A DNA stretch of 64,000 bases from Hydrogenophaga sp. (lineage in GTDB: Bacteria > Pseudomonadota > Gammaproteobacteria > Burkholderiales > Burkholderiaceae_C). The stretch lies in contig JAUXNG010000033.1 of assembly GCA_030682835.1 (NCBI GenBank), forward strand, positions 1-64,000, in the 5' to 3' direction. Shown one piece after another: positions 3,502 to 38,341 of the stretch; the stretch's first letter is position 1; every line of letters begins with the position of its first letter. A model generated the notes under the pieces. That model ran no database searches, was not told where the DNA came from, and saw nothing but the letters and a program-made list of their open reading frames with translations. The translations under genes and the position numbers were made by a program.

Positions 3502-3513
3502 AGGAGAACCTTC

Positions 3514-3873
3514 ATGACTCTCGCTGGACTCGTCGTCGGCCTGCATCTCTTCTCTTGGCACTCAGCCCCCGGCTTCAACGACATCAACCCCGGGGTATAC
3601 CTGAAGACCCCCACCGGCTACACGGCTGGTACTTACTTCAACAGCGAACGCAAGCAGAGCTTCTACGCGGGCCGGACCTTCAACGTCTATGACCCGCTGG
3701 ACGTGACGGTAGGCGGCATCACGGGCTATTCGCGCGCCCCTCTCCTGCCGATGGTCGTGCCCAGCATGTCGGTGCCGGTGGGCGGCACGACGAGCCTGCG
3801 CGTGATCTACCTCCCCAAGCTTGAACCGAAGGGCGCACACGTCTTCCATGGCACATGGGAGCGCAAGTTCTGA
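3514..3873 (+). CDS. Phage-type hypothetical protein
   Basis: 119 residues starting at ATG with AGGAGAA 5 bases upstream. The layout HLFSWHSAPGFNDINPGVY, TGYTAGTYFNSERKQSFYAG, then a hydrophobic stretch around LLPMVVPSMSVPVGG and a C-terminal GTWERKF resembles small proteins in tailed-phage genomes that begin with GLH and carry a PGFNxxNPG motif. The function is unknown. With the broken NYN gene and the preceding terminator it looks like a leftover of a prophage. No attachment repeat was found around it. Confidence 0.55.
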   Translation: MTLAGLVVGLHLFSWHSAPGFNDINPGVYLKTPTGYTAGTYFNSERKQSFYAGRTFNVYDPLDVTVGGITGYSRAPLLPMVVPSMSVPVGGTTSLRVIYLPKLEPKGAHVFHGTWERKF

Positions 3874-4088
3874 CTGGCCTGCCGAGCCCCAACCCCGGCG
3901 CCCGACAGAGACAGAAGCCGAGTCAGGATGGGCGCGCAGACCATCCACGCGGGAATCAGGCATACGACTCTTGCCCCTCGGCAACAGTCTGAACGAACCA
4001 TTGATCGCCTGCGCCCTGCAGCAATTTGAGCAAATTGCAGGTTTTCAGCATGTCGAGCAGGCTGGCCAAGGCCGCCAGTCGGACAACA

Positions 4089-21033: not shown

Positions 21034-21088
21034 GGTGAGAGGTCTTTCAGGGATCAAATGAGAGGAGTCGGATGCTTCGGCGCGGAGA

Positions 21089-21862: not shown

Positions 21863-22036
21863 GTCTGGGGGCGTTCTCGGGGTGCGGCCGAAGCCCGGCT
21901 GGGGCATCGGCTCGGGAATCTCGGCCATGCAAGAAGAAGGCCTGCTCGGCAATCCATCATCTTACCAGCGGGGTCCGGCGGCTCTGTGAGGAGCTGTAAA
22001 GCGGCTGCAAGCGCGCTGGCGCATACTGGGCAGTGT

Positions 22037-22987: not shown

Positions 22988-23010
22988 GCGCGGCGGCGTC
23001 TTTGCGCACA

Positions 23011-23222
23011 AGACTGTGCATAACTTTCTGACAAGTGCCGGGTTATCCACAGCCGCAACGGCATCGGGAGACTTGTCCCCTTTTCAAGCCGGGGGAAACA
23101 GGGCTGCACACACAGGCTTCTGCGCGACGCAAGTGCTTGTCGAGCTTGAAGAAAAGCCGGTTGTACACAAAAAAGTGCCTGCTCTACTACTGCTACTAAT
23201 TTGAAATAGAAGTATTAGAAGA
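23011..23222 (+). other. Origin-like element A: DnaA boxes, DnaA-trio-like repeat, AT-rich tail
   Basis: Intergenic. In order: a perfect reverse DnaA box TGTGCATAA (23015-23023), a perfect forward box TTATCCACA (23043-23051), CTTGTCCCC (23072-23080), a near box TTGTACACA (23161-23169), a GC-rich spacer, then TCTACTACTGCTACTAAT (23183-23200) and AT-rich sequence. Box, spacer and TAC/TAG triplets match the layout of the basal unwinding system (DnaA box, GC-rich spacer, DnaA-trio) known at bacterial oriC. A second copy with the same spacing is at 37.0 kb. Confidence 0.7.
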
Positions 23223-23295
23223 GTAGAAGGGGGACCCGAAAACCGGAGGTGCCGAGCACCGGGAAGGCACTTCAGCGAGCTGAAATAGCACCGGC

Positions 23296-23323
23296 GAAAA
23301 AAAACCGCCCTGTCAGGGCGGTT
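23296..23323 (-). terminator. Intrinsic terminator of the acetyltransferase gene
   Basis: AACCGCCCT and AGGGCGGTT form a 9-bp stem around GTC. On the minus strand it is followed by a run of eight T, placed about 40 bases past the stop codon. Confidence 0.88.
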
Positions 23324-23364
23324 CGAAGCAAGGCGAGGCGACTGATCAGCAGGCGCCGCGAGTG

Positions 23365-26043
23365 TCACAGCATGTGCGTGACCAGTTTGAAGTCCGGATC
23401 TTCTGCAAAGGTCTTGATCTGGAAGCCCAAGCCACGCATCAGCTTGAGCATGCCCGGGTTGTTGGCCAGCACCAGACCTTCGATTTCGGTGAGGCCCTTG
23501 TCGCGCGCCTCTTCCATGATGCTGAGCATCAGGCGCGAGCCCAGGCCTTTGCCATTGAAATCGTCGGCCACCACCAGAGAAAACTCGCAGCTCGACTTGT
23601 CGGGATTGGTGATGTAGCGCGAAACGCCCACGATGCGCTCCCGGTCCGCCATTTCGCCAGCGGCGTTGGCCCGGCGGTCGCGGTAGATGGCGACCAGGGC
23701 CATTTCGCGGTCGTAGTCGATCAGGGTCAGGCGCGACAGCATCGCCGGCGGCAACTCCTTGAGTGAGGAGACAAAACGGAAGTAACGGCTCTCGGGTGAG
23801 AGGTTCTGCACCAGATCTTGCAGCATCTGCGCGTCGTCTGGGTGGATCGGGCGGATGGTGTACTCGCCACCGCCCCGCAGCGGCCACACCTGCTCGTAAC
23901 GGGCCGGGTAGGGCAGGATGGCCAGGTGGGCGTAGTTGCGGGCCGTGGCGGGCGCGTTGTCGATGACGATGCGCGCGTCCACCGCCACCGCGCCGGACTC
24001 GTCCACGATGATGGGGTTGATGTCCATCTCGCGCAGCTGTGGCAGCTCGCACACCATCTCCGACACACGCAGCAGCACGTGTTCCAGCGCGTTGCGGTCC
24101 ACCGCGGTGGCGCCGCGCCAGTTGCCGAGGGTCTCGGCCACGCGCGAACGGTCGATGAGCCGGCGCGCCAGGAACTGGTTGAGCGGCGGCAGTTCCATGG
24201 CGCGGTCGTTGATCAGCTCGATCATGGTGCCACCGGCGCCAAACGCGATCACCGGTCCGAAGGGGTCGTCGGTGACCAGGCCGATATAGAGCTCGCGCCC
24301 GCGCTTGTTGCGCGCCATCTTCTGGATGGTGACGCCGTTGATGCGCGCGCCGGGCTGCAGCTTGGTCACCGTCTGGATCATGGTGTTGTAGACATCGCGC
24401 ACGCCCACGGCGTTGAGGATGTTCAGCGCCACGCCGTTCACGTCGCTCTTGTGGCTGATGTCAGGCGAGTCGATCTTGAGCGCCACCGGGTAGCCCAGCT
24501 GGGTGGCGATCATCATGGCTTCGTTGGCGCTGCGTGCCAGGATGGTCTGCGTGACCGGGATATGGAAGGCCGACAGCAGGGCCTTGGATTCCATCTCGGT
24601 GAGCACCTTGCGCCGTTCGGTCAGCACGTTCTCGATCAGCAGGCGAGCACCCTCGATATCGGGCTTGGCCAGGGTCGAGAGCGGGGGCGGCGTCTGCTGC
24701 AGCAGCTGCTGGTTCTGGTAGAAGCTGGCGATATTGCCGAAGGCGCCCACGGCCGCCTCGGGCGTGCGGAAGCTCGGAATGTTGGCCGTGGCCAGCACGT
24801 CGCGGGCTTCGCCCACCGAAGCATCGCCCATCCAGCAGCACAGCAGCGGTTTGCTGAGCTGGCTTTTCAGTTCGGCCATGGCGCGCGCCACATCGGCGGC
24901 GTCGGTACCGGCCTTGGGGGAGTGCACCACCAGCACGCCATCCACCGAGCGGTCGCGTGCGGCCGCTTCGATGGCCGCCCGGTAGTGGGCGGGGGTGGCG
25001 TCTTCCGACAGATCGATCAGGTCGCTCAGCGAGGCCAGGGCAGGCAGTTGCGGCTTGAGCGCGGTGGCCACGTCGGGCGCGAGCCGGCCGAGTTCCAGCT
25101 CGATCTCGCTCACCCAGTCGGCCGCCAGCACACCGGGGCCGCCGCCGTTGGTGACAATGGCCAGGCGCTTGCCCACCGGCCGGTAGCGCGAGGCCAGGCA
25201 CTTGGCGGCCGAAAAGAGTTCCACGAAGGAGCGCACGCGCACCGCGCCGGCGCGTCGCAGCGCGGCGTCAAACACGTCGTCGCTGCCCACGATGGCGCCG
25301 CTGTGCGTCTGGGCCGCCAGGTTGCCCGCATTCTTGCGGCCAGCCTTGAGCACCACCACCGGCTTGGCGTTGGCCGCGGCGCGCAGCGCGCTCATGAAGC
25401 GGCGCGCGCTGGAGATGCCCTCCATGTACACCACGATGCTGTGGGTGTGCTGGTCGGAGGCCAGGAAATCGAGCACCTGGGCGATGTCGACCGCCGTGTT
25501 GGGGCCGAGCGAGACCACGGTGGAGAAACCCACGGCGTTCAGGCTGGCCCAGTCGAGGATGGAGGCGGTGAGCGCCCCCGACTGGGAAATGAGGGCCAGC
25601 GGGCCGGCTGTCGTGAGCGGGCCGGCGACGCTGGCGTTGAGGCCGCTGCGCGGTCGCTGGAAGCCCATGCTGTTGGGTCCCAGCAGGTGCATGCCGTGGC
25701 GCCGCGCCACGCGGTGCATCTCGGCGGCCACGTCGGCGGGCGTGCCGCTGCCGATCACCAGCGCGGCGCGGCACTTGATGCGGCCAGCCACTTCCAGTGC
25801 CTCAATCGCTTCGGCCGGCGGCAGGGCGATGATGGCCAGATCGGCCCGGGTCTGGGCCAGGTCGGCCAGGGTGCCGGTGGTGTGAATGTCGAGGAACACC
25901 AGGTTCCCGGCGAAGCGCTGGGCCCGCAGCGACTGCCCGAGCACGCGCGCATGGGGCAGCTGGTGCTCCGGGTCGTCGGCCGAGCCGGCAAAGACGGCGA
26001 TGGTCTGGGGTTCGAACAGCGGAGTGAGGTAGTGTTTGTCCAT
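23365..26043 (-). CDS. Protein lysine acetyltransferase Pat: acyl-CoA synthetase (ADP-forming)-like plus GNAT
   Basis: 892 residues from ATG 26043. Order of domains: CoA-binding Rossmann domain (about 1-130, LFEPQTIAVFAGSADD), succinyl-CoA ligase-like domain (about 130-460, ALISQSGALTASILDWAS, IVTNGGGPGVLAADW), ATP-grasp domain (about 490-700, GYPVALKIDSPDISHKSDV, GAGGTMIELIND) and a C-terminal GNAT domain (about 735-892, YTIRPIHPDDA, GLGSRLMLSIMEEARDKG). This architecture is that of Pat/PatZ (YfiQ), which acetylates and inactivates acetyl-CoA synthetase and other proteins. It lies 16 bases after the deacetylase gene. Confidence 0.9.
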   Translation of the reverse strand: MDKHYLTPLFEPQTIAVFAGSADDPEHQLPHARVLGQSLRAQRFAGNLVFLDIHTTGTLADLAQTRADLAIIALPPAEAIEALEVAGRIKCRAALVIGSGTPADVAAEMHRVARRHGMHLLGPNSMGFQRPRSGLNASVAGPLTTAGPLALISQSGALTASILDWASLNAVGFSTVVSLGPNTAVDIAQVLDFLASDQHTHSIVVYMEGISSARRFMSALRAAANAKPVVVLKAGRKNAGNLAAQTHSGAIVGSDDVFDAALRRAGAVRVRSFVELFSAAKCLASRYRPVGKRLAIVTNGGGPGVLAADWVSEIELELGRLAPDVATALKPQLPALASLSDLIDLSEDATPAHYRAAIEAAARDRSVDGVLVVHSPKAGTDAADVARAMAELKSQLSKPLLCCWMGDASVGEARDVLATANIPSFRTPEAAVGAFGNIASFYQNQQLLQQTPPPLSTLAKPDIEGARLLIENVLTERRKVLTEMESKALLSAFHIPVTQTILARSANEAMMIATQLGYPVALKIDSPDISHKSDVNGVALNILNAVGVRDVYNTMIQTVTKLQPGARINGVTIQKMARNKRGRELYIGLVTDDPFGPVIAFGAGGTMIELINDRAMELPPLNQFLARRLIDRSRVAETLGNWRGATAVDRNALEHVLLRVSEMVCELPQLREMDINPIIVDESGAVAVDARIVIDNAPATARNYAHLAILPYPARYEQVWPLRGGGEYTIRPIHPDDAQMLQDLVQNLSPESRYFRFVSSLKELPPAMLSRLTLIDYDREMALVAIYRDRRANAAGEMADRERIVGVSRYITNPDKSSCEFSLVVADDFNGKGLGSRLMLSIMEEARDKGLTEIEGLVLANNPGMLKLMRGLGFQIKTFAEDPDFKLVTHML

Positions 26044-26059
26044 GAGACCTTTGGGTTGT

Positions 26060-26986
26060 TCAGTCGGCGCCGATGAGCACCCGCACATGGGCGGCGGCGC
26101 TGCGGGCCAGCGGGCTCAGCACATACCCGCCTTCCAGACAGGAAATGATGCGCCCTTTGCCGTGTTTTTGCGCAATCTTGAGCAATTGCTGGGTCACCCA
26201 CGCGTAGTCGGCTTCCACCAGACCGAGGTTGCCCATGTCGTCCTCGCGGTGCGCGTCGAACCCGGCGGATATGTAGATGAGTTCTGGCGCGAACGCGTCC
26301 AGCGCCGGCAGCCAGTGGTCGGTGACGGCTTCGCGGAAGGCGTCGCTCCCCGAGCGCGTGGGCAGGCCCACGTTGACCATGTTAGGTCCCGTGGCCTCGT
26401 CGCCGTTGAAGGGGTAGAGGCCTTTTTCGAAGATGGAACACATCAGCACGCGTTCGTCGCCCTGGAAGATGTCTTCGCTGCCGTTGCCGTGGTGCACGTC
26501 GAAGTCGATCAGGGCCACGCGCTGGATACCGTGCACATTGAGCGCGTGGCGGATGCCCACCGCCACGTTGTTGAAGAAGCAGAAACCCATGGCGGCCGAG
26601 CGTTCGGCGTGGTGGCCCGGCGGGCGCACGCAGCAAAAGGCGGTGGGCACGCTGCCGGACACCACCAGATCGGTGGCCTGCACCGCGGCGCCGGCCGCGC
26701 GCAGAGCGGCCGTGAGGGTGTGCGGGTTCATGTAGGTGTCGGGGTCGACCGGGTGCAGGCCTTCGGTGGGTGAAGCGGCCATGAGTTCGCTCACGTAGAG
26801 CGATGCGTGCGCCTGGCTCAGCTGCTCCATCGTGGCCAGCGGTGCGTCGTAGGGAACCATGTAATCGAGCAGGCCCTTGACCAGCAGGTGGTCGTTGATG
26901 GCGCCCAGGCGTTCGGGACACTCGGGGTGTTGCGGGCCCATTTCGTGGCGGGCGCAGTCGGGGTGGGTGATGTAGGCGGACAGCAC
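26060..26986 (-). CDS. Histone deacetylase family protein (AcuC/acetylpolyamine amidohydrolase type)
   Basis: 308 residues, zinc-dependent deacetylase fold. Catalytic motifs: VRPPGHHAERSAAMGFC (His pair), IDFDVHHGNGSED (zinc Asp and His), SAGFDAHREDDMG (second zinc Asp) and CLEGGYV. Substrates of bacterial relatives include acetylated acetyl-CoA synthetase (AcuC) and acetylpolyamines; both fit here, since the next gene is a Pat-type acetyltransferase and a polyamine island lies 10 kb on. The 16-base gap to the acetyltransferase gene implies an operon. Confidence 0.9.
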   Translation of the reverse strand: MLSAYITHPDCARHEMGPQHPECPERLGAINDHLLVKGLLDYMVPYDAPLATMEQLSQAHASLYVSELMAASPTEGLHPVDPDTYMNPHTLTAALRAAGAAVQATDLVVSGSVPTAFCCVRPPGHHAERSAAMGFCFFNNVAVGIRHALNVHGIQRVALIDFDVHHGNGSEDIFQGDERVLMCSIFEKGLYPFNGDEATGPNMVNVGLPTRSGSDAFREAVTDHWLPALDAFAPELIYISAGFDAHREDDMGNLGLVEADYAWVTQQLLKIAQKHGKGRIISCLEGGYVLSPLARSAAAHVRVLIGAD

Positions 26987-27116
26987 GGTTTTCCTCGGGT
27001 CGGGGTGGTCTTGCGGGCTTGGAGCTGCCCGTCGGATGGGTTCTGCACCAATCTAGACCTTTTCCCTTACCCGTGGCTTGACATGCCGCAAGTTCTGGCC
27101 GGGCGCGCCGCCACGC

Positions 27117-28340
27117 TCAGTGCAGGCCGGTGAGGCTGCCCGCGAGCACGCGCTTGAACGGCACCAGCCGCTCACCCAGCTGCACCAGCGTGTGGCGCAG
27201 CCAGCGCGCCGGCGCCTGCTCCTGCGTGTACAGGCTGGCGAGCGCGTGCGTGGCCATGTAAAGCCCCCGGCTGGCGCGCTGGTGGGTCTGCTGGTAGCGC
27301 TCCAGCAGGGCAGGGGAGGCGATGTCATGCCCGCTGCGCCGGGCCTCGATCAGCAGGCGCGACAAGGTTTCGATGCTGCGCAGGCCCAGGTTGAAACCGT
27401 GCGCCGTGACCGGGTGCATGCCCACGGCGGCGTCGCCCACCGCGGCGAAGCGCTGCGCCACCAGCCGGCGCGGCCACACGCCCACCAGCGGGTAGGCGTG
27501 CCGCGTGCTGGCCAGCTGCATGGTTCCCAGGCGTTCGTCGAAGCGCCGGGTCATGCCGGCGCCAAAGGCCTCGTCCGGCAGGTCGAGCAGGGGCTGCAGC
27601 TCGTGGCTGGGCAGGGTCAGCACCACCGAAGACCGGTGCTGCCCGGTGAGCGGGCAGGGGTTCATGGGCAGCAGGGCCAGGGTCTGCCCGTGGTCGAACC
27701 ATTCCCAGGCGGTATCAAAGTGCGCCTGCTGGTGCGTCATCTGGCAGACCAGCATGCTGCGACCATAGTCGTGCAGGTCGGCCGCGATGCCCATGGCGCG
27801 GCGGGTGGATGAATGCCGGCTGTCCGCAGCCACGGCCAGGCGGGCGGTGAGGGTGGTGCCACTGGCCAGCACCAGGCGGGCGCCGCTGGCGCCGGTGTGG
27901 ATCTGGCTCACCTGTTCACCGCTGAACAGCGTGGGCGTGGCGCCAGCCGCCGCGTCATCGAAGTTCGCCAGCCAGGCCCCGCGGCGGATGTGGTGGTTGC
28001 CCACCAGGTGCCCCAGCTCGGGCAGCGCATGGCGCGGCGGGCTGTGCGTGTGGCTGATGTGCATGCGCGCCTGGCCCGGGCCGTGGGCTCCGTCCATCAC
28101 CAGCGCCACTTTCAGCGGCGCGATGTTGTCTTCCCCCAGGTGCTGCCACAGGCCCAGCTGGCGCAGCAGCTGCGCGCTGTGCTGGGTGAGCGCGATTTCG
28201 CGGCCGTCGAAGGCGGGTGCCTGCAGCGCCGCGGCGGTCTGCTGTTCGACCAGCGCCAGGCGCAGGCCGCTGTCGCGCAACGCGCGTGCCAGGCACAGGC
28301 CGGCGGGCCCTGCGCCGACGATGATGAGGTCAAAGTCCAT
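27117..28340 (-). CDS. ubiM: FAD-dependent ubiquinone biosynthesis hydroxylase (UbiH/UbiM family)
   Basis: 407 residues. The N-terminal dinucleotide fold is DFDLIIVGAGPAGLCLARAL, the second FAD motif is AAVGDAAVGMHPVTAHGFNL, and the DG-type motif appears in AVAADSRHSSTRR. These define UbiH/UbiF/UbiM-type aromatic hydroxylases. The HPVTAHGFN form (rather than HPIAGQGLN) fits UbiM, the 5-demethoxyubiquinol hydroxylase of Neisseria and some betaproteobacteria, but assignment among paralogues is by pattern only. No other ubi gene adjoins it. Confidence 0.72.
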   Translation of the reverse strand: MDFDLIIVGAGPAGLCLARALRDSGLRLALVEQQTAAALQAPAFDGREIALTQHSAQLLRQLGLWQHLGEDNIAPLKVALVMDGAHGPGQARMHISHTHSPPRHALPELGHLVGNHHIRRGAWLANFDDAAAGATPTLFSGEQVSQIHTGASGARLVLASGTTLTARLAVAADSRHSSTRRAMGIAADLHDYGRSMLVCQMTHQQAHFDTAWEWFDHGQTLALLPMNPCPLTGQHRSSVVLTLPSHELQPLLDLPDEAFGAGMTRRFDERLGTMQLASTRHAYPLVGVWPRRLVAQRFAAVGDAAVGMHPVTAHGFNLGLRSIETLSRLLIEARRSGHDIASPALLERYQQTHQRASRGLYMATHALASLYTQEQAPARWLRHTLVQLGERLVPFKRVLAGSLTGLH

Positions 28341-28486
28341 GGCGCGGCAGCTTAAGCGGCCGGGCCGCCGGCCGGCTTGACTCAGGTCAAGCGCCAGCCG
28401 GGTGGTGGATGACGTGGCACGGCCCCGGGCAGGCAGGCTGCCCGGGGCCGTGCGGAAAAGACGAAAGCGGCGTCGCCAGCGCGGGA

Positions 28487-29122
28487 TCAGCCCTGGGGTT
28501 TGGCCATGGCTTCGCAGCCCATGCCACCCATCATGCCGCCCATTTTTCCGCCGGACATGCCAGCGCCGTGGTGCATGCCGTGATGGGCGCCGTGCCCGCC
28601 CTTCGAGCCGGTGCGCTGCATGCCGCCGTGGCTCTGGGTATCGAACACCTGCTGCTGCTCGGGGGTGAGGGCGGCGTAGAAGCTCTTCGTGGCGTCGATG
28701 CGCTTGGCCATCTCGGCTTGGCGCTCGGCTTGCATGGCCTGCATCTTGTCCAGGCGCTGTGGCGTGGTCAGCTTGGACCAGTCTTCAGCGGGGGCTGCGG
28801 CCGGGCGGGCGGCCGGTGCTGTGCGCGCCAGGAAGGCGTTCCACGCAGGCTCTTGCTCGGGCTTCAGATTCAGTGCGGCCTTCAGCTGCGCCTGGTGCTC
28901 GGCGCGCATTTTTTCCATGCGCTCCATGCGCTGGGCGTGGTGCTGCGCATACGACTGGGCTTTGTCGCCCTGGGTGGCGCCCGCTGCCGGCTGGCCCTGG
29001 TGTTGCTGGTGCATGCCGTGCGGCATGCCGCCCATGCCTTGTGCGACGGCGGTGGCCGATACGCCCACAAAAGCGGTGGCGAGGGCGGCGGCGATGAGAG
29101 CGCGCTTGGAAGACAGTTTCAT
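28487..29122 (-). CDS. Spy/CpxP-like periplasmic LTxxQ protein, Met/His-rich
   Basis: 211 residues from ATG 29122 (AGGAG 5 bases upstream). Signal peptide MKLSSKRALIAAALATAF ending near AVAQ. Two LTxxQ-type repeats (LTTPQRLDKMQ and LTPEQQQVFD) place it with Spy/CpxP periplasmic chaperones. Both ends are rich in Met, His and Gly (MGGMPHGMHQQHQ; HGAHHGMHHGAGMSGGK), suggesting copper or other soft-metal binding. Its place next to cueR, copZ and copA supports a role in copper stress. Probably induced by metal (inference). Confidence 0.85.
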   Translation of the reverse strand: MKLSSKRALIAAALATAFVGVSATAVAQGMGGMPHGMHQQHQGQPAAGATQGDKAQSYAQHHAQRMERMEKMRAEHQAQLKAALNLKPEQEPAWNAFLARTAPAARPAAAPAEDWSKLTTPQRLDKMQAMQAERQAEMAKRIDATKSFYAALTPEQQQVFDTQSHGGMQRTGSKGGHGAHHGMHHGAGMSGGKMGGMMGGMGCEAMAKPQG

Positions 29123-29283
29123 GATCACTCCTGAGTAGTTGATGAAGACCCGTCCGGACAGCTGAGGTGTCTCAGCGCTAGCGGGTTGCTGCCAGTGTGC
29201 AGACCACCTGTATCGGCTTCATGGTGGATTGAGTCTGTTCTGTAAACTTTTGTTCCGCTTCCCCGCGCGGGGCTTGCGCTGGG

Positions 29284-29763
29284 TCAAGGATGCGCCAGGT
29301 CGTCCAGGATCGGGCAATCGGGCCTTCCGTCGCCGGGGCACAGCTGCAGCAGGCTGGAGAGCGTGCGCTGCATGGCCTGCAGCGCTTCGATGCGCAGGTC
29401 CAGTTCGTCCAGGTGTTTCTGCGCGATGCGCTTGACGCTGGCGCTGCTGCGCCGGCGGTTGTGCCACAGGCTCACCAGCTCGGCGATGGCGTCCAGCCCG
29501 AAGCCCATGTCGCGCGATCGGCGGATGAAACGCAGCGTGTGCACGTCGGCCAGGCTGTACTGGCGGTAGTTGCCTTCGGTGCGCGTGACGGCGCCGAGCA
29601 GACCCAGCGATTCGTAGTGGCGCAGCATCTTGGGCGAGATGCCACTCAGGTGCGCCGCCACGCCGATGCTGACCGGCCAGGCAGCAACGGCCCGCAGCTC
29701 GGCATCATCGTCGGTGGCCGCTGGCGCAGAGGGCGCGGCATTGCCTCGGCGCTTGTGATTCAT
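29284..29763 (-). CDS. cueR: CueR-type MerR family copper-responsive regulator
   Basis: 159 residues. The N-terminal winged helix (IGVAAHLSGISPKMLRHYES, then GNYRQYSLADVHTLRFI) and coiled-coil dimer helix are MerR type. The C-terminal metal loop is CPGDGRPDCPIL, with the two Cys seven residues apart that bind Cu(I), Ag(I) or Au(I) in CueR. An N-terminal extension of about 28 residues is unusual. It lies 6 bases after copZ and is co-transcribed. It should act on the two 19-bp-spacer promoters between copZ and copA. Confidence 0.93.
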   Translation of the reverse strand: MNHKRRGNAAPSAPAATDDDAELRAVAAWPVSIGVAAHLSGISPKMLRHYESLGLLGAVTRTEGNYRQYSLADVHTLRFIRRSRDMGFGLDAIAELVSLWHNRRRSSASVKRIAQKHLDELDLRIEALQAMQRTLSSLLQLCPGDGRPDCPILDDLAHP

Positions 29764-29769
29764 GGGAAG

Positions 29770-29976
29770 TCAGGCGGCGACCTGATAGCCCTCTTCGCGG
29801 ATGGCGGCGGCGATCGTCTCGCGCGGCTGTGAGGAACTGACCTCGACGCGGTTCTGGCTGCGCTCGATGCGCACCTCAGCCTGCGGGTCGAGCTGGCGAA
29901 TGGCGGTGGTGACGGCTTTTTCGCAGTGGCCGCAGGTCATGCCTTGCACGTCGAAGGTCTGGGGGGTCTGGCTCAT
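29770..29976 (-). CDS. copZ: Copper chaperone CopZ
   Basis: 68 residues from ATG 29976 (GGAG upstream). One HMA domain: FDVQGMTCGHCEKAVTTAI with the Cu-binding CxxC, ending REEGYQVAA. It delivers Cu(I) to CopA or to CueR in the cytoplasm. First gene of copZ-cueR, divergent from copA across a CueR-regulated control region. Confidence 0.95.
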   Translation of the reverse strand: MSQTPQTFDVQGMTCGHCEKAVTTAIRQLDPQAEVRIERSQNRVEVSSSQPRETIAAAIREEGYQVAA

Positions 29977-30016
29977 GGTGGGCTCCTGATGGTCGCGTGG
30001 GTGAATCGAGGACTGC

Positions 30017-30047
30017 ATTGTCAGGCTTCACACGGTGTCAAGGTCAA
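30017..30047 (-). promoter_or_regulatory. CueR-type promoter of copZ-cueR
   Basis: On the minus strand TTGACC (-35) and GACAAT (-10) are 19 bases apart, the long spacer typical of MerR-family promoters. The spacer holds CTTGACAC-C-GTGTGAAG, a near-perfect dyad fit for CueR. Confidence 0.8.
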
Positions 30048-30119
30048 GCCGGCCTGTCAAGGCAGTCCCGTCGGGTGGTTTCACGCGGGCGGCCTGTCAC
30101 ACCTCGGTACACGACGTGC

Positions 30120-30150
30120 TTGACCTTCCCATCGGGGTAAAGCTTATGCT
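30120..30150 (+). promoter_or_regulatory. CueR-type promoter of copA
   Basis: TTGACC (-35, 30120-30125), a 19-base spacer and TATGCT (-10, 30145-30150). The spacer dyad CTTCCC-ATC-GGGGTAAAG resembles E. coli PcopA. The ATG of copA begins 7 bases after the -10, so transcription should start at or next to the start codon. Confidence 0.8.
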
Positions 30151-30156
30151 GCACGC

Positions 30157-32493
30157 ATGAACACCGCTGCCCTGAACCCTTCCACACCAGACCCTGCGCA
30201 CGCGCCGGGTGCGGCCACACAGATCGACATTGGCATCGGGGGCATGACCTGTGCCTCCTGCGTTTCGCGGGTCGAGAAGACACTGAAGAAGCAGGCGGGC
30301 GTCACGGCGGCCACCGTCAACCTGGCCACCGAATCGGCACGCGTGACGCTCGACGGCACGGGCGATGACGCCGAGGCACTGGCCCGCCTGAAGCGCGCCG
30401 TGCGCGACGCGGGCTACGAGCCGCGCAGCGTGGAGGCGCTGGATGAGGCCGCGAATGCGCGCTGGCTGGGCCTGCCGCGCGACCTGTGGCCGGTGCTCAT
30501 TGCCGTGCTGCTGTCGGCGCCGCTGGTGGTGCCCATGGTGGGCGATCTGTTCGGGCGGCACTGGATGCTGCCGGCCTGGATCCAGTTCCTGCTGGCCACG
30601 CCGGTGCAGTTCGTGCTGGGCGCGCGCTTCTACAAGGCCGGCTGGCACGCGCTGAAGGCGCGCACCGGCAACATGGAACTGCTGGTGGCCATCGGCACCA
30701 CCGCGGGCTGGGCCTTGTCCACCTGGCTGTGGTGGCGGGGCGAGCCGGGCGAGATGGTGCACCTGTACTACGAGGCCTCGGCCGTGGTGATCACCCTGGT
30801 GCTGCTGGGCAAGTGGCTGGAGGCACGCGCCAAACGGCAGACCACCAGCGCCATCCGGGCCCTGCAGGCGCTGCGGCCGGAGCGTGCCCATCTGCTGCCC
30901 GATGGCGTGCGGCGGCTGGAGCTGACCGACGTGGGTGTGGACGAGCTGCTGCCGGGCGACGTCATCCGCGTGCTGCCGGGTGAGCGCTTCGCCGCCGACG
31001 GCGAGGTGCTGCTGGGCCACACGCAGGCCGACGAATCCATGCTCACCGGCGAGTCCATGCCGGTGACCAAGCAGGCCGGCGACGGCGTGACGGGCGGGTC
31101 GCTCAACGGAGAAGGCGCGGTCGAGGTGCGGGTGCGCGCGGTGGGCGCGCAGAGCGTGCTGGCCCAGATCATCGGCATGGTGCAGGACGCCCAGGCGGCC
31201 AAGGCGCCGGTGCAGCGGATGGTGGACCAGGTGGCTGCGGTGTTCGTGCCCGTCGTGCTGGTGATCGCGGTGCTCACGCTGGCGGTCTGGCTCTACCTGG
31301 GAACACCCATCGAAGAAGCCATGCTCCACGCCGTGGCGGTGCTGGTGATCGCCTGCCCGTGCGCACTCGGACTGGCCACACCCGCGGCCATCATGGCCGG
31401 CACCGGCGTGGCCGCGCAGCACGGCATTCTCATCAAGGACGCGCAGGCGCTGGAGCTGGCGCACCGGGTGGACACGGTGGCGTTTGACAAGACCGGCACC
31501 CTTACCGAAGGTCACCCACGGCTGCGCCTGATCGAGGCCGCGCCCGGTGTGGACGAACTGGCGGTGCTGGAAGCCGCTGGTGCCCTGCAGGCGCAGAGCG
31601 CGCACCCGCTGGCCCGGGCCGTGCTGGAGGCCGCCGCCGCGCGCGGGCTGGTGGTGGCGCCGGACGCAGCGCAGGACGTGCAGGCGATCGCAGGCCGCGG
31701 GAGCCAGGGTGTCGTGAAGGGTGTGAGCCTGGCACTGGGCAGCCTGCGCTGGATGGACGAGCTGGGCGCCGCGCTGGGCTCGCTGGCACCTCGGGCGCAG
31801 GCCATGCAGACCGATGGCTCCACCGTGTCGGCACTGGCCGCCCAGGGGACCGACGGGCAGTGGACACCGATGGCCCTGCTGGCTTTTGGCGACGAGCCCA
31901 AGCCAGGCGCGGCCGCTGCCATTGCGCGGCTGCGGGCGCAGGGCCTGCGGGTCTTCATGGTCTCGGGCGACAACCAGGGCGCTGCGCTGGCCATGGCCCG
32001 CACGCTGGGCCTGCGCGCCGAAGACGGCGAGGTTATCGCCGAGGTGCTGCCGGGCGACAAGGCCGCGGTGGTGGAAGCGCTGCGCCACGGTCGCCCGGGC
32101 TCGATACCGCAGGGAAGCAGCGGGCCTGTGCACCGGGTGGCCATGGTGGGCGATGGCGTGAACGATGCCCCGGCACTGGCCGCGGCCGACGTCGGCATGG
32201 CCATGAGCCACAGCCAGGGCGGCAGTTCGGACGTGGCGATGCACGCCGCCGGCATCACCCTCATGCGGGGCGATCCGGCGCTGGTGGCCGCTGCGCTCGA
32301 CATTTCACGGCGCACCGTGTCCAAGATCCGGCAGAACCTCTTCTGGGCCTTCGCCTACAACGTGGCGGGCATCCCGCTTGCTGCGCTGGGCTTCCTGAGC
32401 CCGGTGGTGGCCGGCGCGGCGATGGCGCTCAGCTCGGTCAGCGTGGTCAGCAATGCCTTGCTGCTCAAGCGCTGGAAGCCGCCGGTGAAGTGA
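30157..32493 (+). CDS. copA: Cu(I)-exporting P-type ATPase CopA
   Basis: 778 residues. One N-terminal HMA domain (IGGMTCASCVSRVEK), eight membrane segments, TGES actuator motif, CPCALGLATP in helix 6 (metal site), DKTGTLTEGH phosphorylation site, the HP dipeptide in QSAHPLARA and GDGVNDAPAL hinge. It pumps Cu(I) from cytoplasm to periplasm. No ribosome site is present, because the CueR promoter places the start of transcription at the ATG. A short G/Q/S insertion precedes the GDGVNDAP motif (RPGSIPQGSSGPVHRV). Confidence 0.97.
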   Translation: MNTAALNPSTPDPAHAPGAATQIDIGIGGMTCASCVSRVEKTLKKQAGVTAATVNLATESARVTLDGTGDDAEALARLKRAVRDAGYEPRSVEALDEAANARWLGLPRDLWPVLIAVLLSAPLVVPMVGDLFGRHWMLPAWIQFLLATPVQFVLGARFYKAGWHALKARTGNMELLVAIGTTAGWALSTWLWWRGEPGEMVHLYYEASAVVITLVLLGKWLEARAKRQTTSAIRALQALRPERAHLLPDGVRRLELTDVGVDELLPGDVIRVLPGERFAADGEVLLGHTQADESMLTGESMPVTKQAGDGVTGGSLNGEGAVEVRVRAVGAQSVLAQIIGMVQDAQAAKAPVQRMVDQVAAVFVPVVLVIAVLTLAVWLYLGTPIEEAMLHAVAVLVIACPCALGLATPAAIMAGTGVAAQHGILIKDAQALELAHRVDTVAFDKTGTLTEGHPRLRLIEAAPGVDELAVLEAAGALQAQSAHPLARAVLEAAAARGLVVAPDAAQDVQAIAGRGSQGVVKGVSLALGSLRWMDELGAALGSLAPRAQAMQTDGSTVSALAAQGTDGQWTPMALLAFGDEPKPGAAAAIARLRAQGLRVFMVSGDNQGAALAMARTLGLRAEDGEVIAEVLPGDKAAVVEALRHGRPGSIPQGSSGPVHRVAMVGDGVNDAPALAAADVGMAMSHSQGGSSDVAMHAAGITLMRGDPALVAAALDISRRTVSKIRQNLFWAFAYNVAGIPLAALGFLSPVVAGAAMALSSVSVVSNALLLKRWKPPVK

Positions 32494-32661
32494 ACGAGGC
32501 ATCTGCCTCGCGCGGACGGGTGGCTACACCGAAAACCCCGCGGGCGTGGCGCGGCGGGTTACCACCCGCAAACCTGCGCAGTGCTACTGTCGAGCCCTTC
32601 CTTGAAGCGTGCCGCTGCCCGACGGGCCGGCCGCTTCATGTCATTTCCGAAAGCGATTCCC

Positions 32662-33717
32662 ATGCTGTTCTCCCCTCTGCAAGCCGGTGCCTTCACGCTG
32701 CCCAACCGTGTGCTGATGGCGCCGCTGACCCGTGCCCGCGCCAGTGACGGCCACCTGCCCAACGCCCTCATGGCCGAGTACTACGCCCAGCGCGCCAGCG
32801 CTGGCCTGATCGTGACCGAGTGCACCATGATCAGCCCCGCCACCTCGGCCTTCGTGGCTGAGCCGGGCATCTACAACGACGAGCAGGTCCAGGCCTGGCG
32901 GCAGGTGACCGACGCGGTGCACGCCAGGGGCGGGCGCATCGTGCTGCAGATCTGGCACGCGGGGCGTGCGGCGCACCCGGCCCTCAATGGCGGGGCACCC
33001 ACCGTGTCGGCCAGCGCCCTGGTGGCCGAGGGCGAGACCCAGACACCCGACGGCAAGCTGCCCAATGCCGTGCCGCATGCCCTGCGCACCGATGAAATTT
33101 CCGCCATCGTGGAAGCCTTCGCCGAGGCCGCTCGCCAGGCCGTGAAAGCCGGCTTCGACGGTGTCGAGGTGCACGGCGCCAACGGTTACCTGATCGACCA
33201 GTTCCTGCGCGACGGCTCCAACCGGCGCGCCGATGCCTACGGCGGTTCGCTGGAGAACCGGGCGCGTTTCCTGTTCGAGGTGCTCGCTGCCGTGAGCGCG
33301 GCGATCGGGTCTGACCGGGTGGGCCTGCGACTGTCGCCGCTGAACAGCTACAACAGCATGAAAGACAGCGATCCGGTGGGCCTGGTCTCGTTCCTGGCCG
33401 AGCACCTGAACCGCTTCAACCTGGCCTACCTGCACCTGATGCGGGCCGACTTCTTCCAGGCCCAGACCGGCGATGTGGTGACGCCGGCCCGTGCCCTCTA
33501 CAAGGGCGTGCTGGTGGGCAACATGGGCTACAGCGGCGAGGAGGCCACCCGGGCCATCGAAGCCGGTCAGCTGGACGCCGTGGCCTTTGGCACCGCCTTC
33601 CTGGCCAACCCGGACCTGCCCGCGCGGCTGCAGGGCGGCGCCCCGCTCAATGCACCGGACGCCAGCACCTTCTACACGCCCGGGCCCAGGGGCTACACCG
33701 ATTACCCGTCGCTCTGA
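32662..33717 (+). CDS. Old yellow enzyme family flavin oxidoreductase (NemA-like)
   Basis: 351 residues from ATG 32662. TIM-barrel FMN enzyme: NRVLMAPLTRARA (FMN-contact Thr), LQIWHAGRAAHP (HAGR; substrate binding), GFDGVEVHGANGYLIDQFL, NRRADAYGGSLENRARF and VAFGTAFLANPDLPARL. It reduces activated alkenes, nitro compounds or N-ethylmaleimide-type electrophiles with NADPH. The gene stands alone; a neighbouring TetR regulator, common for nemA, is absent. Confidence 0.92.
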   Translation: MLFSPLQAGAFTLPNRVLMAPLTRARASDGHLPNALMAEYYAQRASAGLIVTECTMISPATSAFVAEPGIYNDEQVQAWRQVTDAVHARGGRIVLQIWHAGRAAHPALNGGAPTVSASALVAEGETQTPDGKLPNAVPHALRTDEISAIVEAFAEAARQAVKAGFDGVEVHGANGYLIDQFLRDGSNRRADAYGGSLENRARFLFEVLAAVSAAIGSDRVGLRLSPLNSYNSMKDSDPVGLVSFLAEHLNRFNLAYLHLMRADFFQAQTGDVVTPARALYKGVLVGNMGYSGEEATRAIEAGQLDAVAFGTAFLANPDLPARLQGGAPLNAPDASTFYTPGPRGYTDYPSL

Positions 33718-33726
33718 GACGACGCC

Positions 33727-33761
33727 GCCGGCCGCACAGGCGGCCCGGCGCCCCGTTTTTT
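33727..33761 (+). terminator. Probable terminator of the old yellow enzyme gene
   Basis: GCCGGCCGC pairs with GCGGCCCGGC (one bulged C) around ACAG. Six T follow after GCCCCG, about 10 bases past the stop. The distance to the T run is longer than usual. Confidence 0.45.
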
Positions 33762-33851
33762 GACATGGGTCAACGCCGTGCACAAGGTTCTCGGGGATGC
33801 TAGGGGCAGACAGCTGTTGAACAGCCGCCCCCACCCGACGGAGACAAACCC

Positions 33852-34442
33852 ATGACACACGAAGCCCTGCGCGTGATACGCGACGAACACGCCACCCTGG
33901 CCGCCATGCTGCAGTCGCTCATGCAGATGGTGAAGCGCGGCCCCGACCCCGATGGCTCTGGCCAGCACGAGCTGTACTTCGATGTGCTGCGGGCCATGCT
34001 GTTCTACATCGACGAGTTCCCCGAGCAGCTGCACCACCCGAAAGAATCGGACCTGCTGTTCCCGCGCGTTGCGCGGGCGGCTCCGAAACTGATGCCGGTG
34101 ATCGACCAGCTGGAGCGCGACCACCACAGTGGCGAGCCCCGCGTGCGCGAACTCATGCACCTGCTGATGGCCTGGGAATACCTGGGCGATGGGCGGCGCA
34201 AAGTCTTCGAGGACGAGGTGACCCGCTATGTGGAGTTCTACCTGCAGCACATGCGGCTGGAAGAAACCGAGATCCTGCCCGCGGCCGAGCAGCACCTCAC
34301 CGATGAAGACTGGCATGCGCTCAACGCCGCCTTTGCCACCAACCGCGACCCGCTGAACGGCCGCGTGCCGCGCGACCCCCAGTTCGACCGCCTGTTCACG
34401 CGCATCGTGATGCGCGCACCCTCGCCCGTCGGCCTGGGCTGA
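33852..34442 (+). CDS. Hemerythrin HHE-domain protein
   Basis: 196 residues. Iron-ligand pattern of HHE domains: IRDEHATLAAML, QLHHPKESDLLFP, ERDHHSGEPRVREL and YLQHMRLEETEILP. It would bind a di-iron centre and could sense or carry O2 or NO, or help repair Fe-S clusters. Four-helix bundle, no signal peptide. Monocistronic, with a GGAGAC ribosome site. Confidence 0.9.
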   Translation: MTHEALRVIRDEHATLAAMLQSLMQMVKRGPDPDGSGQHELYFDVLRAMLFYIDEFPEQLHHPKESDLLFPRVARAAPKLMPVIDQLERDHHSGEPRVRELMHLLMAWEYLGDGRRKVFEDEVTRYVEFYLQHMRLEETEILPAAEQHLTDEDWHALNAAFATNRDPLNGRVPRDPQFDRLFTRIVMRAPSPVGLG

Positions 34443-34521
34443 TCCCGCGACACGTCCGCCGCATCCCGCGGAATACGGGCGCGACCGCGTCGGCCACCCG
34501 CTAGCGCCACAATGGCCGGTC

Positions 34522-35766
34522 ATGCCCGACCGCCACCCTGCCGCCTCACCGTCAGCACCCGATCCGGGCGCGGACCGCACGCCTTATGTGCGCCTGGCGC
34601 TCGCGCTCTCGCTGGGCGCAGCGGTGTCGCTGGGCATCACCCGGTTTGCCTACGGCCTGTTGCTGCCCACCATGCGCGAAGACCTCGGCTGGAGCTACAC
34701 GCTGGCCGGGGCCATGAACACCTTCAACGCCGTGGGCTACCTGCTGGGTGCCCTGGCCACACCCTGGCTGCTGCGCCGCACAGCGCCCACCGCGCTGCTG
34801 CTCTGGGGTTCGGCGCTGGCCACACTCTTCATGGCGCTCAGCGGTTTTTTCACCACGGCGGGACCCTTGTTGGCGCAGCGGCTGCTGGCGGGCGTGGCCA
34901 GCGCGCTGGTGTTCATCGCAGGCGGGCTGCTGGCGGCACGCCTGGGCGCACGGCAGCCGCAGCGCAGCGGCTTCCTGCTCGGCATCTACTACGGCGGCAC
35001 CGGCCTGGGCATCGTGCTCTCGGCCGTGGGCGTGCCCTGGGTGCTGGGACGGGCCGCCGGTGTGCCCCACGCGTGGGCCTGGGCCTGGTGGGGGCTGGCC
35101 CTGCTGTGTGCACTGGCCACCGTGCTGCTGGCATGGCCGGCGCGGGTGCTCGGTGGCCACGCGGCGCCCGTACCCGCGGCAGCCCGCACCGGTAGCGCGG
35201 CCCATGCCGAACGCGTATTCCGACCCCGCGATTTCGCGTTTGCGCTCGCGGGCTACACCGGCTTTGGCGTGGGTTACATCGGCTACATGACCTTCGTGAT
35301 CGCGCTGCTGCGCGAGCAAGGCAGCACGCCCGGTGACATCACGCTGTACTACGCGCTGCTGGGTGTGGCGGTGATGGCGTCGTCGCGCATCTGGGCGGGC
35401 CTGCTGGACCGGCACCGCAGCGGGCAGGCGCTGGCGCGGCTCAACGCCCTGCTGGGCGTGGCGGCCATCGTGCCGGCGCTCACCAGCGCCTGGCCGCTGG
35501 TGCTGGCCTCGGGCCTGCTGTTTGGCGCCGTGTTCCTGTCGGTGGTGGCATCCACCACAGCGCTGGTGCGGCACAACCTGCCGCCCGCCCAGTGGGCGGC
35601 GGGCATCAGCGCTTTCACCATCGTGTTCGCCGCCGGGCAGATCGTCGGCCCCACGGTGGTGGGCTTCATTGCCGACGGGCCGGGCGGCCTGGCGCGCGGC
35701 CTGGTGTTCTCGGCCGTGGCGCTGTGGCTGGGTGCTGCGCTGGCCTCGCGGCAGCGCGCGCTCTGA
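34522..35766 (+). CDS. MFS transporter, YbfB/YjiJ family
   Basis: 414 residues with about twelve membrane helices. The N-terminus [20 protein letters not shown] and [20 protein letters not shown] match the YbfB/YjiJ branch ([11 protein letters not shown] motif). The central loop between helices 6 and 7 is at about residues 205-235. Substrate unknown; the family is thought to export small molecules. Single gene, between hemerythrin and yebC. Confidence 0.85.
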
Positions 35767-35858
35767 GCCGGCGGCCCGCGTGCGACCTTGCCCTAAACTG
35801 GGCACCCCTTTTTCGCCACACACAACGGCCCGCAGGAGCCACACAAAGGAACACCGCC

Positions 35859-36572
35859 ATGGGCGCGCAGTGGAAAGCAAAACACAAAGACCTGGCCGCC
35901 AACGCCAAAGGCCGGCTGTTCGGCAAGCTGGCCAAAGACATCATGATCGCCGCCCGCCACGGCGCCGACCCGGCGGCCAACGCCCGCCTGCGGCTGGTGG
36001 TGGAACAGGCCCGCAAGGTGTCCATGCCCAAGGACACGCTGGACCGCGCCATCAAGAAAGGCGCCGGCCTCACCGGTGAAGCCGTGCATTTCGACCACGT
36101 GGTCTACGAAGGTTTTGCGCCCCATCGCGTGCCGGTGATGGTGGAATGCCTGACCGACAACGTGAACCGCGCCGCGTCTGAAATGCGGGTGCTGTTCCGC
36201 AAGGGCCAGCTCGGCACGTCCGGCTCGGTGGCCTGGGACTTCGACCACCTGGGCATCATCGAAGCCGAGGCCAGCCAGCCCGGCGTCGATCCCGAGCTGG
36301 CCGCCATCGAAGCCGGCGCGCAAGATCTGGAGCCGGGTGAGGACGGTGGTGCCACCGTGTTCTACACCGCGCCCACCGAACTGGATCTGGTGAGCCGCGC
36401 GCTGCCCGCGCAGGGCTTCACGGTGCAATCGGCCAAGCTGGGCTACCGGCCGAAGAACCCGGTGGACCCGGCCAGCCTGAGCGCCGAGCAGCTGGCCGAG
36501 GTGGAAGCCTTCCTGGCAGCGCTGGACGACAACGAAGACGTGCAGAACGTGTTCGCCGGCCTGGGCGGCTGA
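35859..36572 (+). CDS. YebC/PmpR family translation/transcription factor
   Basis: 237 residues from ATG 35859 (AAAGGA upstream). [20 protein letters not shown] and [17 protein letters not shown] are the family N-terminus, followed by [20 protein letters not shown] and [19 protein letters not shown]. YebC proteins relieve ribosome stalling at proline-rich runs, and some act as regulators. The WKAKHKD form (not HSKWANIKHRK) is typical of the YeeN-like YebC2 subgroup. Confidence 0.92.
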
Positions 36573-36646
36573 ACGCGGCCTGCCGCCATTCCCTTGCGCC
36601 ACCTGTCGCAGAATGCAGGCTTTTGAACCTTGAAGATCGCCACCCG

Positions 36647-36904
36647 ATGAACGACGCCACCCACACCCCCGCCCAGCCTCCCCTGCCCGACCACCTGTCC
36701 ATCGACCCGCGCAGCCCGCACCACGTGGCCGCCGTGTTCGAGCACGACATCGGCATCCGCTTCAACGGCCAGGAACGCGTGGACGTGGAGGAGTACTGCA
36801 TCAGCGAAGGCTGGATCAAGGTGCCCGCCGGCAAGACGCTGGACCGCAAGGGCCGCCCGCTGCTGCTCAAGCTCAAGGGCACGGTCGAGGTGTTCTACAA
36901 GTGA
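36647..36904 (+). CDS. DUF3297 family protein
   Basis: 85 residues from ATG 36647. LPDHLSIDPRSPHHVAAVFE, HDIGIRFNGQERVDVEEYCI and EGWIKVPAGKTLDRKGRPL fill the conserved DUF3297 region and leave almost no extra sequence. Function unknown; small, soluble, common in Proteobacteria. It follows yebC by 75 bases and ends at a strong terminator. Confidence 0.88.
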   Translation: MNDATHTPAQPPLPDHLSIDPRSPHHVAAVFEHDIGIRFNGQERVDVEEYCISEGWIKVPAGKTLDRKGRPLLLKLKGTVEVFYK

Positions 36905-36950
36905 GGCGCCGACGTGCGGGCCGGTGATTCCGGCCCTGAAATCTCCCACC

Positions 36951-36972
36951 AGGCGCTTCGGCGCCTTTTTTG
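36951..36972 (+). terminator. Intrinsic terminator of the DUF3297 gene
   Basis: AGGCGC-TTCG-GCGCCT with a UUCG tetraloop, followed by TTTTTTG. It shields the origin-like element just downstream from transcription. Confidence 0.93.
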
Positions 36973-37000
36973 TTTTTGAACGTCTAGCGCCTCCGGCACA

Positions 37001-37215
37001 AGCCTGTGCATATCTCCAGAACAAGTGACCGGTTATCCACAGCAATGTGGACAGTTCAGGTCTTATCCCCGATCCGGTCCGCCAGCAAAGGGGTGCTTTT
37101 CACAGGGCTGTGCGCTCGGCAAGTCCTTGTCAGGTCAGTAGAAACGCGGGTTGTGCACAGAAAAAGCCGCCCTCTACTACTGCTACTAATTTGTATTAAA
37201 GCTATAGAGAGATAA
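37001..37215 (+). other. Origin-like element B: DnaA boxes, DnaA-trio-like repeat, AT-rich tail
   Basis: Same layout as element A: TGTGCATAT (37005-37013, one mismatch to a reverse box), perfect TTATCCACA (37033-37041), CTTATCCCC (37062-37070), TTGTGCACA (37151-37159), GC-rich spacer, TCTACTACTGCTACTAAT (37173-37190) and an AT-rich tail. All landmarks lie exactly 13,990 bases from their counterparts in element A, with no insertion or deletion between them. By hand count about 127 of 193 positions agree, concentrated in the boxes and the triplet block. Confidence 0.7.
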
Positions 37216-37396
37216 CAAAGGCCGGGCCCCGGAACCCCTCAGACCCCGTCAAACGGGCCTCCAGACGACCCCGTCCGGCGATGGCTGTGGCCGGCGGCGG
37301 CGGATTGGATCCATGGTTGGGCCGCTGTCGCGCTATCTTTTGAGGCCAATTCGGCCGCCGGTGCGCGCCACGACTTCACATGCAAAGGTCCACGCC

Positions 37397-38341
37397 ATGT
37401 CCATGGGACAGTTCGCCTACGCCAGCAACACCAACCGTTTTCTTGCCGCCGAGCCGCTGGTAAACCAGCCCTTTGCCATCGCGGGCGTGCCGTTTGACGG
37501 CGTGGTGACGAACCGGCCGGGCGCGCGCTTTGGCCCGCAGGCCATTCGCGCCGCCAGCCTGATGCTGTGTGACGGTATTCACCCGCATTTCGACGTGTCA
37601 CCGCTGGCCCATCTGGGCGATGCGCTGGACATGCGCCTGCCCAACGCCTCGCCGTTGAGCGAGGTGCGCCAGCACATCCAGGCGCAGGCCGCTGCGCTCA
37701 TGGCGCGCCACCACTGCGTGTTCCTGGGCGGCGACCATTCGGTGACGCTGGCGCTGCTGCGCGCCGCGCGCGAGCAGCACGGCGAGGCGCTGGCCTGCGT
37801 GCACTTCGACGCGCACTGCGACACCTGGAGCGACCACTTTGGCGAGCCCTCGGGCCACGGCACCTGGACGTATGAAGCCATTCAGGAAGGTCTGATCAGC
37901 CCGGCGCACACGGTGCAGATCGGCATACGCTCCAGCGGCGAACGCGCGGCGCGCGAGTACGTGGCCGAGCAGGGCGGGCAGATTTTCTCGGCGCGTGCCC
38001 TGCGCGGTCTGGATGGTGCCGGGCTGCAGCCGGCTATTGAGGCCATCCGCTCGCGCATGGGTGAGCGGCCCTGCTACCTGACACTGGACATCGACGTGCT
38101 CGACCCGGCTTTCGCCCCCGGCACGGGCACGCCCGAGCCGGGCGGCCTCACCAGCTCGCAGGTGCTCACCTTCCTGGAAGAATTGGCCGGCCTGAACTGG
38201 GTGGGCATGGACTGCGTGGAAGTGGCGCCCGCCTACGACCACGCCGAGCTGACCAGCAACGCCGCGGCCACCTTTGTGTGGACTTACCTGAGCGGCCAGG
38301 TGGCACGCCAGCTGGGCCGCCTGCCCCGGCCAGGAGCCTGA
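37397..38341 (+). CDS. speB: Agmatinase (ureohydrolase family)
   Basis: 314 residues from ATG 37397. Binuclear manganese site: FLGGDHSVTLALL (His), VHFDAHCDTW (Asp-His-Asp) and TLDIDVLDPAFAPG (Asp-Asp), plus the GVPFDGVVTNRPGARFGPQA start and GTPEPGG. It should hydrolyse agmatine to putrescine and urea. Its place 2 bases before a puuB-like oxidase gene and near the polyamine island supports agmatinase over guanidinobutyrase, though the latter cannot be excluded. Confidence 0.88.
   Translation: MSMGQFAYASNTNRFLAAEPLVNQPFAIAGVPFDGVVTNRPGARFGPQAIRAASLMLCDGIHPHFDVSPLAHLGDALDMRLPNASPLSEVRQHIQAQAAALMARHHCVFLGGDHSVTLALLRAAREQHGEALACVHFDAHCDTWSDHFGEPSGHGTWTYEAIQEGLISPAHTVQIGIRSSGERAAREYVAEQGGQIFSARALRGLDGAGLQPAIEAIRSRMGERPCYLTLDIDVLDPAFAPGTGTPEPGGLTSSQVLTFLEELAGLNWVGMDCVEVAPAYDHAELTSNAAATFVWTYLSGQVARQLGRLPRPGA

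Follow-up and report, generated by a model that had tools for sequence, protein, structure and literature searches.

Two preserved copies of a probable chromosome-origin core lie 14 kb apart in a Hydrogenophaga genome

The 64,000-nucleotide stretch analysed here (the window) forms the first part of an 85-kb contig, JAUXNG010000033.1, from a draft Hydrogenophaga genome (GCA_030682835.1; 87% complete, assembly of 3.6 Mb), and it carries two origin-like elements, A (23001..23218, + strand) and B (36995..37208, + strand), which had been picked out in an initial annotation made from the sequence alone. A and B are probably paralogues, each a preserved copy of the family's chromosome-origin core, which consists of DnaA boxes, a spacer, DnaA-trios and an AT-rich unwinding stretch, with A standing at the site usual for the genus. 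The two elements are homologous, share one geometry and are both preserved in a sister genome; the module to which they belong is distributed across the family, and a sharp skew step coincides with it in two relatives. Below, G-numbers denote individual genomes of the sample, g-numbers genera and L-numbers loci.

A and B are copies of one module

The annotation had claimed the same ordered parts in identical geometry, and every part of A did recur in B at an offset of exactly 13,990, with ungapped identity of 143/221 where agreement at about two thirds of positions had been counted by hand. The first part is a reverse DnaA box on the - strand, reading TGTGCATAA on the + strand at 23015..23023 in A and TGTGCATAT at 37005..37013 in B; its presence in both elements stood, but the box is inexact, being one mismatch from TTATCCACA in A and two in B. 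All further parts lie on the + strand. They are a TTATCCACA DnaA box (23043..23051 in A, 37033..37041 in B), a box read from the sequence as CTTGTCCCC in A (23072..23080; a conserved column) and as CTTATCCCC in B (37062..37070), a trio-proximal DnaA box (TTGTACACA at 23161..23169 and TTGTGCACA at 37151..37159), a 14-bp spacer (23170..23183 and 37160..37173), DnaA-trios that read 3'-GAT GAT GAC GAT GAT-5' on the complementary strand in both copies (23184..23200 and 37174..37190) and an AT-rich tail, which in A is the probable unwinding stretch (23201..23228) and in B (37191..37219) is of a type common to G079, G088 and some of the copies of G089.

Conservation was concentrated in the functional columns, as the annotation had proposed, with A equal to B at 64/67 core, 34/55 intermediate and 42/97 variable columns. 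Two profiles, each with both A and B in its training set, matched A at E-values of 2.1e-53 and 8.7e-42 and B at 2.1e-52 and 4.7e-41. When A was compared by blastn with its own 3.6-Mb assembly (E <= 0.001), the only matches were A and B.

Three other explanations were considered and rejected. Chance was ruled out by the uniqueness of the trio block, CTACTACTGCTACTAAT, which occurs exactly twice with up to 3 mismatches allowed (0 expected), and by the scores over the 206-base core, which were 135 for B and 79 for the next best place in the window on either strand. A foreign 14-kb block inserted between A and B was excluded by the collinearity of window positions 23,364-35,766 with positions 60,800-75,176 of G005, which means that B was added and the intervening block was not. 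A plasmid origin carried in the chromosome was rejected on finding no blastn match of A or B (E <= 0.001) in 72,556 plasmid records, phages not being searched.

The module has unwinding geometry and recurs across the family

The published rule for the basal unwinding system of oriC, as given in the relevant passages of PMC8287927, is a DnaA box no more than 16 bp from three or more DnaA-trios (3'-NAN-5') whose middle A is conserved, and A and B both carry such a box 14 bp from their trios. The likeness to that system, as those passages describe it, extends to the order of parts, the 14-bp spacer and trios that are mostly 3'-GAT-5' with the middle A conserved; the difference is that here these parts sit within a rigid, family-specific module of about 215 bp which has further boxes and is present in two copies.

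A sequence-only profile, R1, was built from 38 elements including A and B, its training having taken in elements of about a third of the 67 genus genomes and of far fewer of the family sample. R1 matched 63/67 Hydrogenophaga genomes and 250/260 sampled family genomes (112/115 genera), compared with 6/138 genomes elsewhere in the class (G000 and G001 left out), each of which had one match, the best at E 3.2e-10; scans of more than 40 genomes, which include the genus, family and class counts and the rescan described below, used stricter filters by which weak matches were lost. Near-universal presence in the lineage is what is expected of a chromosomal oriC, and absence from close relatives, which the annotation had named as grounds for abandoning the idea, was not what was found. 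The conserved columns include the DnaA boxes, a CTTRTCC-type box, a CACA, AAGT-CTTG, a TTGTNCACA-type box and the trio.

Both copies are preserved in a sister genome

In G079 A and B occupy the corresponding two sites; they lie on different contigs, which were entered as separate entries in the core-score and tree counts. Between the window and G079, A was identical at 169/213 positions and B at 161/213, both without gaps, while the flanks of B agreed at 36/90 and 50/110, close to unrelated sequence; aligned blocks of the two species are 82-90% identical. All 49 bases from the trio start of B were the same in G079, as were 42/47 positions from the trio start of A. Around A, agreement was 44/55 in the upstream flank, which is partly coding, 31/70 in the 70 bases after the tail and 47/71 in a terminator-like stretch before the next gene (an earlier comparison downstream of A, at 52/130, was no clean control because it had been aligned across a decayed copy, and was redone).

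That decayed copy is the third in G079, next to A, and has lost the main box and the trio. It matched the core columns at 0.66, with A at 0.970 and B at 0.955; 30 single-copy elements gave a mean of 0.963 and a minimum of 0.866, a standard that leans toward the genus, as these loci are mostly top-scoring. Since neither copy has a gap in G079, despite divergence in the flanks of B and the decay of a third copy, A and B both appear to be under selection.

This preservation bears on the possibility that only one copy, probably A, initiates replication, and that the other is a DnaA-binding control site for titration or reactivation, like datA or DARS, whose origin-like geometry is due to descent. 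DnaA boxes alone suffice for titration, and control sites of the datA/DARS type are DnaA boxes without an unwinding element. Neither trios nor an AT-rich tail is needed for titration, yet both are preserved in B, in those 49 bases that are unchanged between two species. On the other side, B stands at a place that is ectopic for most of the genus, G005 lacks it and has its single profile match at the A site, and in Pseudomonas aeruginosa just one of two autonomous origins is essential (cited in PMC4403523). On balance we regard a control site as unlikely, if still a serious contender. A further explanation, that B is a passenger of neutral duplication and turnover on its way to loss, is improbable: one copy is decaying in G079 and copy number varies within the genus, but B is ungapped in two species despite the divergence of its flanks, and in other genera matching copies group across species.

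In a tree of the elements A paired with the A of G079 and B with the B of G079, and the closest relatives of the decayed copy were the B copies; the tail of B and that of the decayed copy both open with TTTGTATT. From this affinity and the shared tail start, a side-by-side pair probably preceded the present arrangement, and such pairs are still found in G015, G030, G034, G060, G066, G069, G024, G067, G080 and G002, with starts 319-586 bp apart. B would then probably be a descendant of the downstream member of the older pair, placed about 14 kb off by a copying event that was followed by the decay (G079) or loss (the window genome) of the original downstream copy. What speaks against this descent is that the tail on which it rests is short and the tree placement weak, the tree having been built on 219 columns and read without regard to branch supports.

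Skew, dnaA position and the module as a very probable origin

Raw cumulative skew was too noisy to point to A or B, so GC skew at fourfold sites was split by gene strand, and the average over both gene strands (corrected skew) was compared between the 20 kb before and the 20 kb after the element. This was applied to four of the five single-contig chromosomes of the genus (G005, G007, G023 and G024; G022 was left out). Across the element corrected skew rose from -0.008 to +0.231 in G005 and from -0.011 to +0.202 in G007, where the step ranked first of 11 and first of 17 bin-to-bin steps respectively, and it went from +0.046 to +0.097 in G024 and from +0.037 to +0.093 in G023. The only raw minima close to the element were that of TA skew in G005 (3.4 kb) and those of GC+TA and TA skew in G007 (7-8 kb). 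Across three transects of 400 kb and a fourth of 240 kb, exact TTATCCACA was confined to the elements except for one occurrence by dnaA. The module lay within 0.5 kb of a dnaA match in 10/40 complete family genomes, at 10-150 kb in 27/40 (G304 uncertain) and farther in 3/40; the distances for G304, G186 and G307 use rounded genome lengths, and the 12.9 kb of G304 could be much less. No DnaA-domain match was found anywhere in the draft assembly of the window genome, which is 87% complete.

Several observations weigh against taking the module for the origin and its second copies for intact ones. Among the 19 steps each of G024 and G023, the corrected step at the element ranked only 6th and 7th respectively, and corrected skew on the far side of the element was near zero, not negative. 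Raw cumulative GC minima fell 47 kb (G005), 43 kb (G007) and 130 kb (G023) from the element, and about 198 kb from it in G024, near the edge of the transect. Within the window no skew switch was seen at A or B in either raw or corrected skew, the latter being uninformative there. In up to 30/40 complete genomes the nearest element is 13-300 kb from dnaA, and only 35/68 second copies reached the lowest single-copy core score, by the genus-leaning standard described above. With a sharp step in only two of four chromosomes, raw minima mostly elsewhere and no switch in the window, we take the module to be very probably, and no more firmly than that, the oriC core of the host's family.

It is quite improbable that the element is some other conserved DnaA-regulated site and that the true origin lies by dnaA. 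The raw GC-skew minimum of G005 is indeed nearer to dnaA (13 kb) than to the element, and DnaA boxes also occur upstream of dnaA; against this, the largest corrected step is at the element in G005 and G007, the only profile match of G005 is that element, and the same module adjoins dnaA in the 10/40 complete genomes noted above.

Paired modules are frequent in the genus and family

At least two copies were present in 15/67 genus genomes (16/67 as first listed, G073 being left out as an artefact), and one of the three copies of G079 is the decayed one. In G073 (G073:C1:211,326-211,389) a weak match on the opposite strand overlaps the main element, and it was put down to the paired boxes as an artefact. 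Split copies were found in G088, 40 kb apart, and in G071, 12.4 kb apart and inverted. The G088 contig (G088:C64 39,177-79,347, L215-L217) has two modules at the A site with about 40 kb of other DNA between them. G089 has three copies, and its locus L222 (G089:C94, 178-7,050) is an inverted segment from an ABC1 kinase to the prenyltransferase region, bounded by module copies as if these had recombined.

In the family sample at least two matches were counted by hand in 88/260 genomes (86 rescanned, the other two being G000 and G034) and one match in 162/260; some of the second matches are incomplete, as in G124 and G245. Neighbouring pairs lying within 102 kb on the same contig numbered 84; of these, 25 were spaced by less than 1 kb, 36 by 1-5 kb, 15 by 5-20 kb and 8 by more, the full range being 0.27-102 kb. 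Orientation was the same in 75/84 and opposite in 9/84 (binomial p 4e-14, with related genomes treated as independent).

In 55/68 multi-copy entries of the tree neither copy was nearest to its own-genome twin, and matching copies of different species often grouped together (for example in g48, g84, g86, g92, g120 and g79). Among the 53 of 73 paired loci that were examined, a PTPS-family gene and a gene for a 214-aa protein, sometimes with more genes, lay between the copies in 17/53, from 9 genera (L267, L269-L275, L280, L282-L284, L287 and L299-L302), and genes of another shared block lay there in 11/53, from 6 genera. The 214-aa protein, scanned as its L271 version only, had no Pfam family match. 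Given the cross-species grouping and the shared intervening genes, the paired arrangements look long-lived, a reading that the 35/68 figure for second copies, given above, tells against. Larger and wider arrays also occur: L117, of Variovorax boronicumulans, has five tandem module matches within 2.7 kb (1,540-4,265), two of which lack the trio end of the profile, G222 has a pair separated by 46 kb, and G226, G297 and G131, of genus g66, each have a pair spaced by about 98-102 kb on one contig and a third copy on another.

The annotation had left a choice between a duplicated and a bipartite origin. A duplicated oriC fits, in that the unwinding geometry recurs family-wide, the largest corrected skew step falls at the element in two of the four chromosomes, and two copies are preserved both here and in G079. 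A bipartite origin, with A and B as two parts acting together as in Bacillus subtilis or Helicobacter pylori, does not fit and is very improbable: there are two DnaA-box clusters near each other, and pairs are common in the family and mostly share orientation, but one unwinding site serves both parts of a bipartite origin, whereas A and B each have their own trio and AT-rich tail, a single match is the commoner state in the family, the spacing is as variable as given above and some pairs are in opposite orientation.

A possible mechanism and its relation to known origins

By analogy with the DnaA-trio system, DnaA would bind the boxes and extend from TTGTNCACA across the spacer onto the trios, where it would open the AT-rich tail, after which the helicase would be loaded; DnaA binding, unwinding and initiation would on this analogy take place at each copy, and either module, A or B, could carry out opening and loading. 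Spacing is rigid throughout the module, which is suggestive of a single ordered DnaA complex on each copy. At 14 kb apart, a fork from one copy would soon pass the other, so that the two copies would act as one redundant origin zone and need not clash.

A wider proposal, which we advance tentatively and hold to be conceivable rather than likely, is that chromosomes in a large part of the family stably maintain two complete and functional origins of the same type, situated in an 'origin zone' that spans about 0.3-100 kb, with selection on having two, such that when one copy moves, as B may have done, the redundant copy decays and the number two is restored. If this were true, the rule of one origin per chromosome would not hold in as much as a third of the family.

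Two comparisons involve, respectively, the two-origin chromosome of Vibrio cholerae, in which origin types were reportedly brought together by fusion, and Burkholderia cenocepacia, which we take to belong to the same family as Hydrogenophaga. The V. cholerae strains have a single chromosome and, according to the passages concerned, two functional origins (PMC6284228, PMC10225481); they share with the window genome the presence of two natural origin regions per chromosome and, as far as those passages go, differ in having two origin types where here there are two copies of one type (PMC6284228). For chromosome 1 of B. cenocepacia, the passages concerned describe DnaA boxes that are dispersed, with a second cluster of boxes near nucleotide 1, and report the exact origin as unclear (PMC4948915). 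CTGTGCA repeats are a point of likeness, and the difference is that no such module or pair is defined in those passages (PMC4948915). The CTGTGCA 7-mer itself is present in both A (23,014-23,020) and B (37,004-37,010), and it is stated in the relevant part of PMC7364216 to occur in all B. cenocepacia replication origins and to overlap a methylated CACAG motif.

Like the A/B pair, the bipartite origins that PMC4403523 names, those of B. subtilis and H. pylori, have two DnaA-box clusters in one origin region; they differ in that A and B each have their own unwinding site. Putative double origins were proposed by Gao in 2015 from DnaA boxes, neighbouring genes and Z-curves, with four representative cases that include Ralstonia pickettii 12D, whose pair is 291 kb apart, at dnaA and hemE (PMC4403523). 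These too are two oriC-like regions per chromosome, and the difference here is that the modules are homologous to each other and recur across a family. The literature searched (titles and abstract openings, with supplements and most subscription journals outside the search) yielded no description of paired homologous oriC modules for this family; the parts of the module are already known, and paired homologous modules recurring in a family are apparently undescribed there.

In 2015 it was asked, as a question still open, whether more than one origin per bacterial chromosome is used naturally (PMC4403523). The present pairs, which recur and are apparently maintained in an environmental, harmless genus, bear on the single-origin rule for bacterial chromosomes, and relatives with single, paired and widely separated copies exist side by side, which makes the multi-origin question directly testable. 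The profile also provides a precise locator of candidate origins where the position of dnaA guides poorly, as in the up to 30/40 complete genomes above, and would be relevant to B. cenocepacia chromosome 1, whose exact origin is unclear in the passages cited (PMC4948915).

Genomic setting of the two elements

The annotation had placed the pair between gyrB and a parS-mnmG region, and this was borne out. gyrB opens the contig and the window, mnmG lies at 60,539-62,557, and two perfect parS-type sites, TGTTTCACGTGAAACA, which we take to be the parS consensus, are at 60,515-60,530 and 62,026-62,041. B lies between a gene ending near 36,904 and an agmatinase gene (NCBIfam; 37313..38341, + strand, start codon not refined) directly downstream. 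A lies between the minC/prenyltransferase side and an acyl-CoA ligase-like gene, which is the usual site in the genus, and the module together with its neighbouring genes is present also in records named Hydrogenophaga. In the context of A are minC (Pfam MinC_N/MinC_C; 21,089-21,952, - strand) and a gene for a ParA-type ATPase (Pfam CbiA/ParA-type; 20,218-21,057, - strand), probably minD, a name given by inference. minC and the probable minD adjoin the module in the window (20,218-21,952), and do so likewise in L285, L288, L292 and L321.

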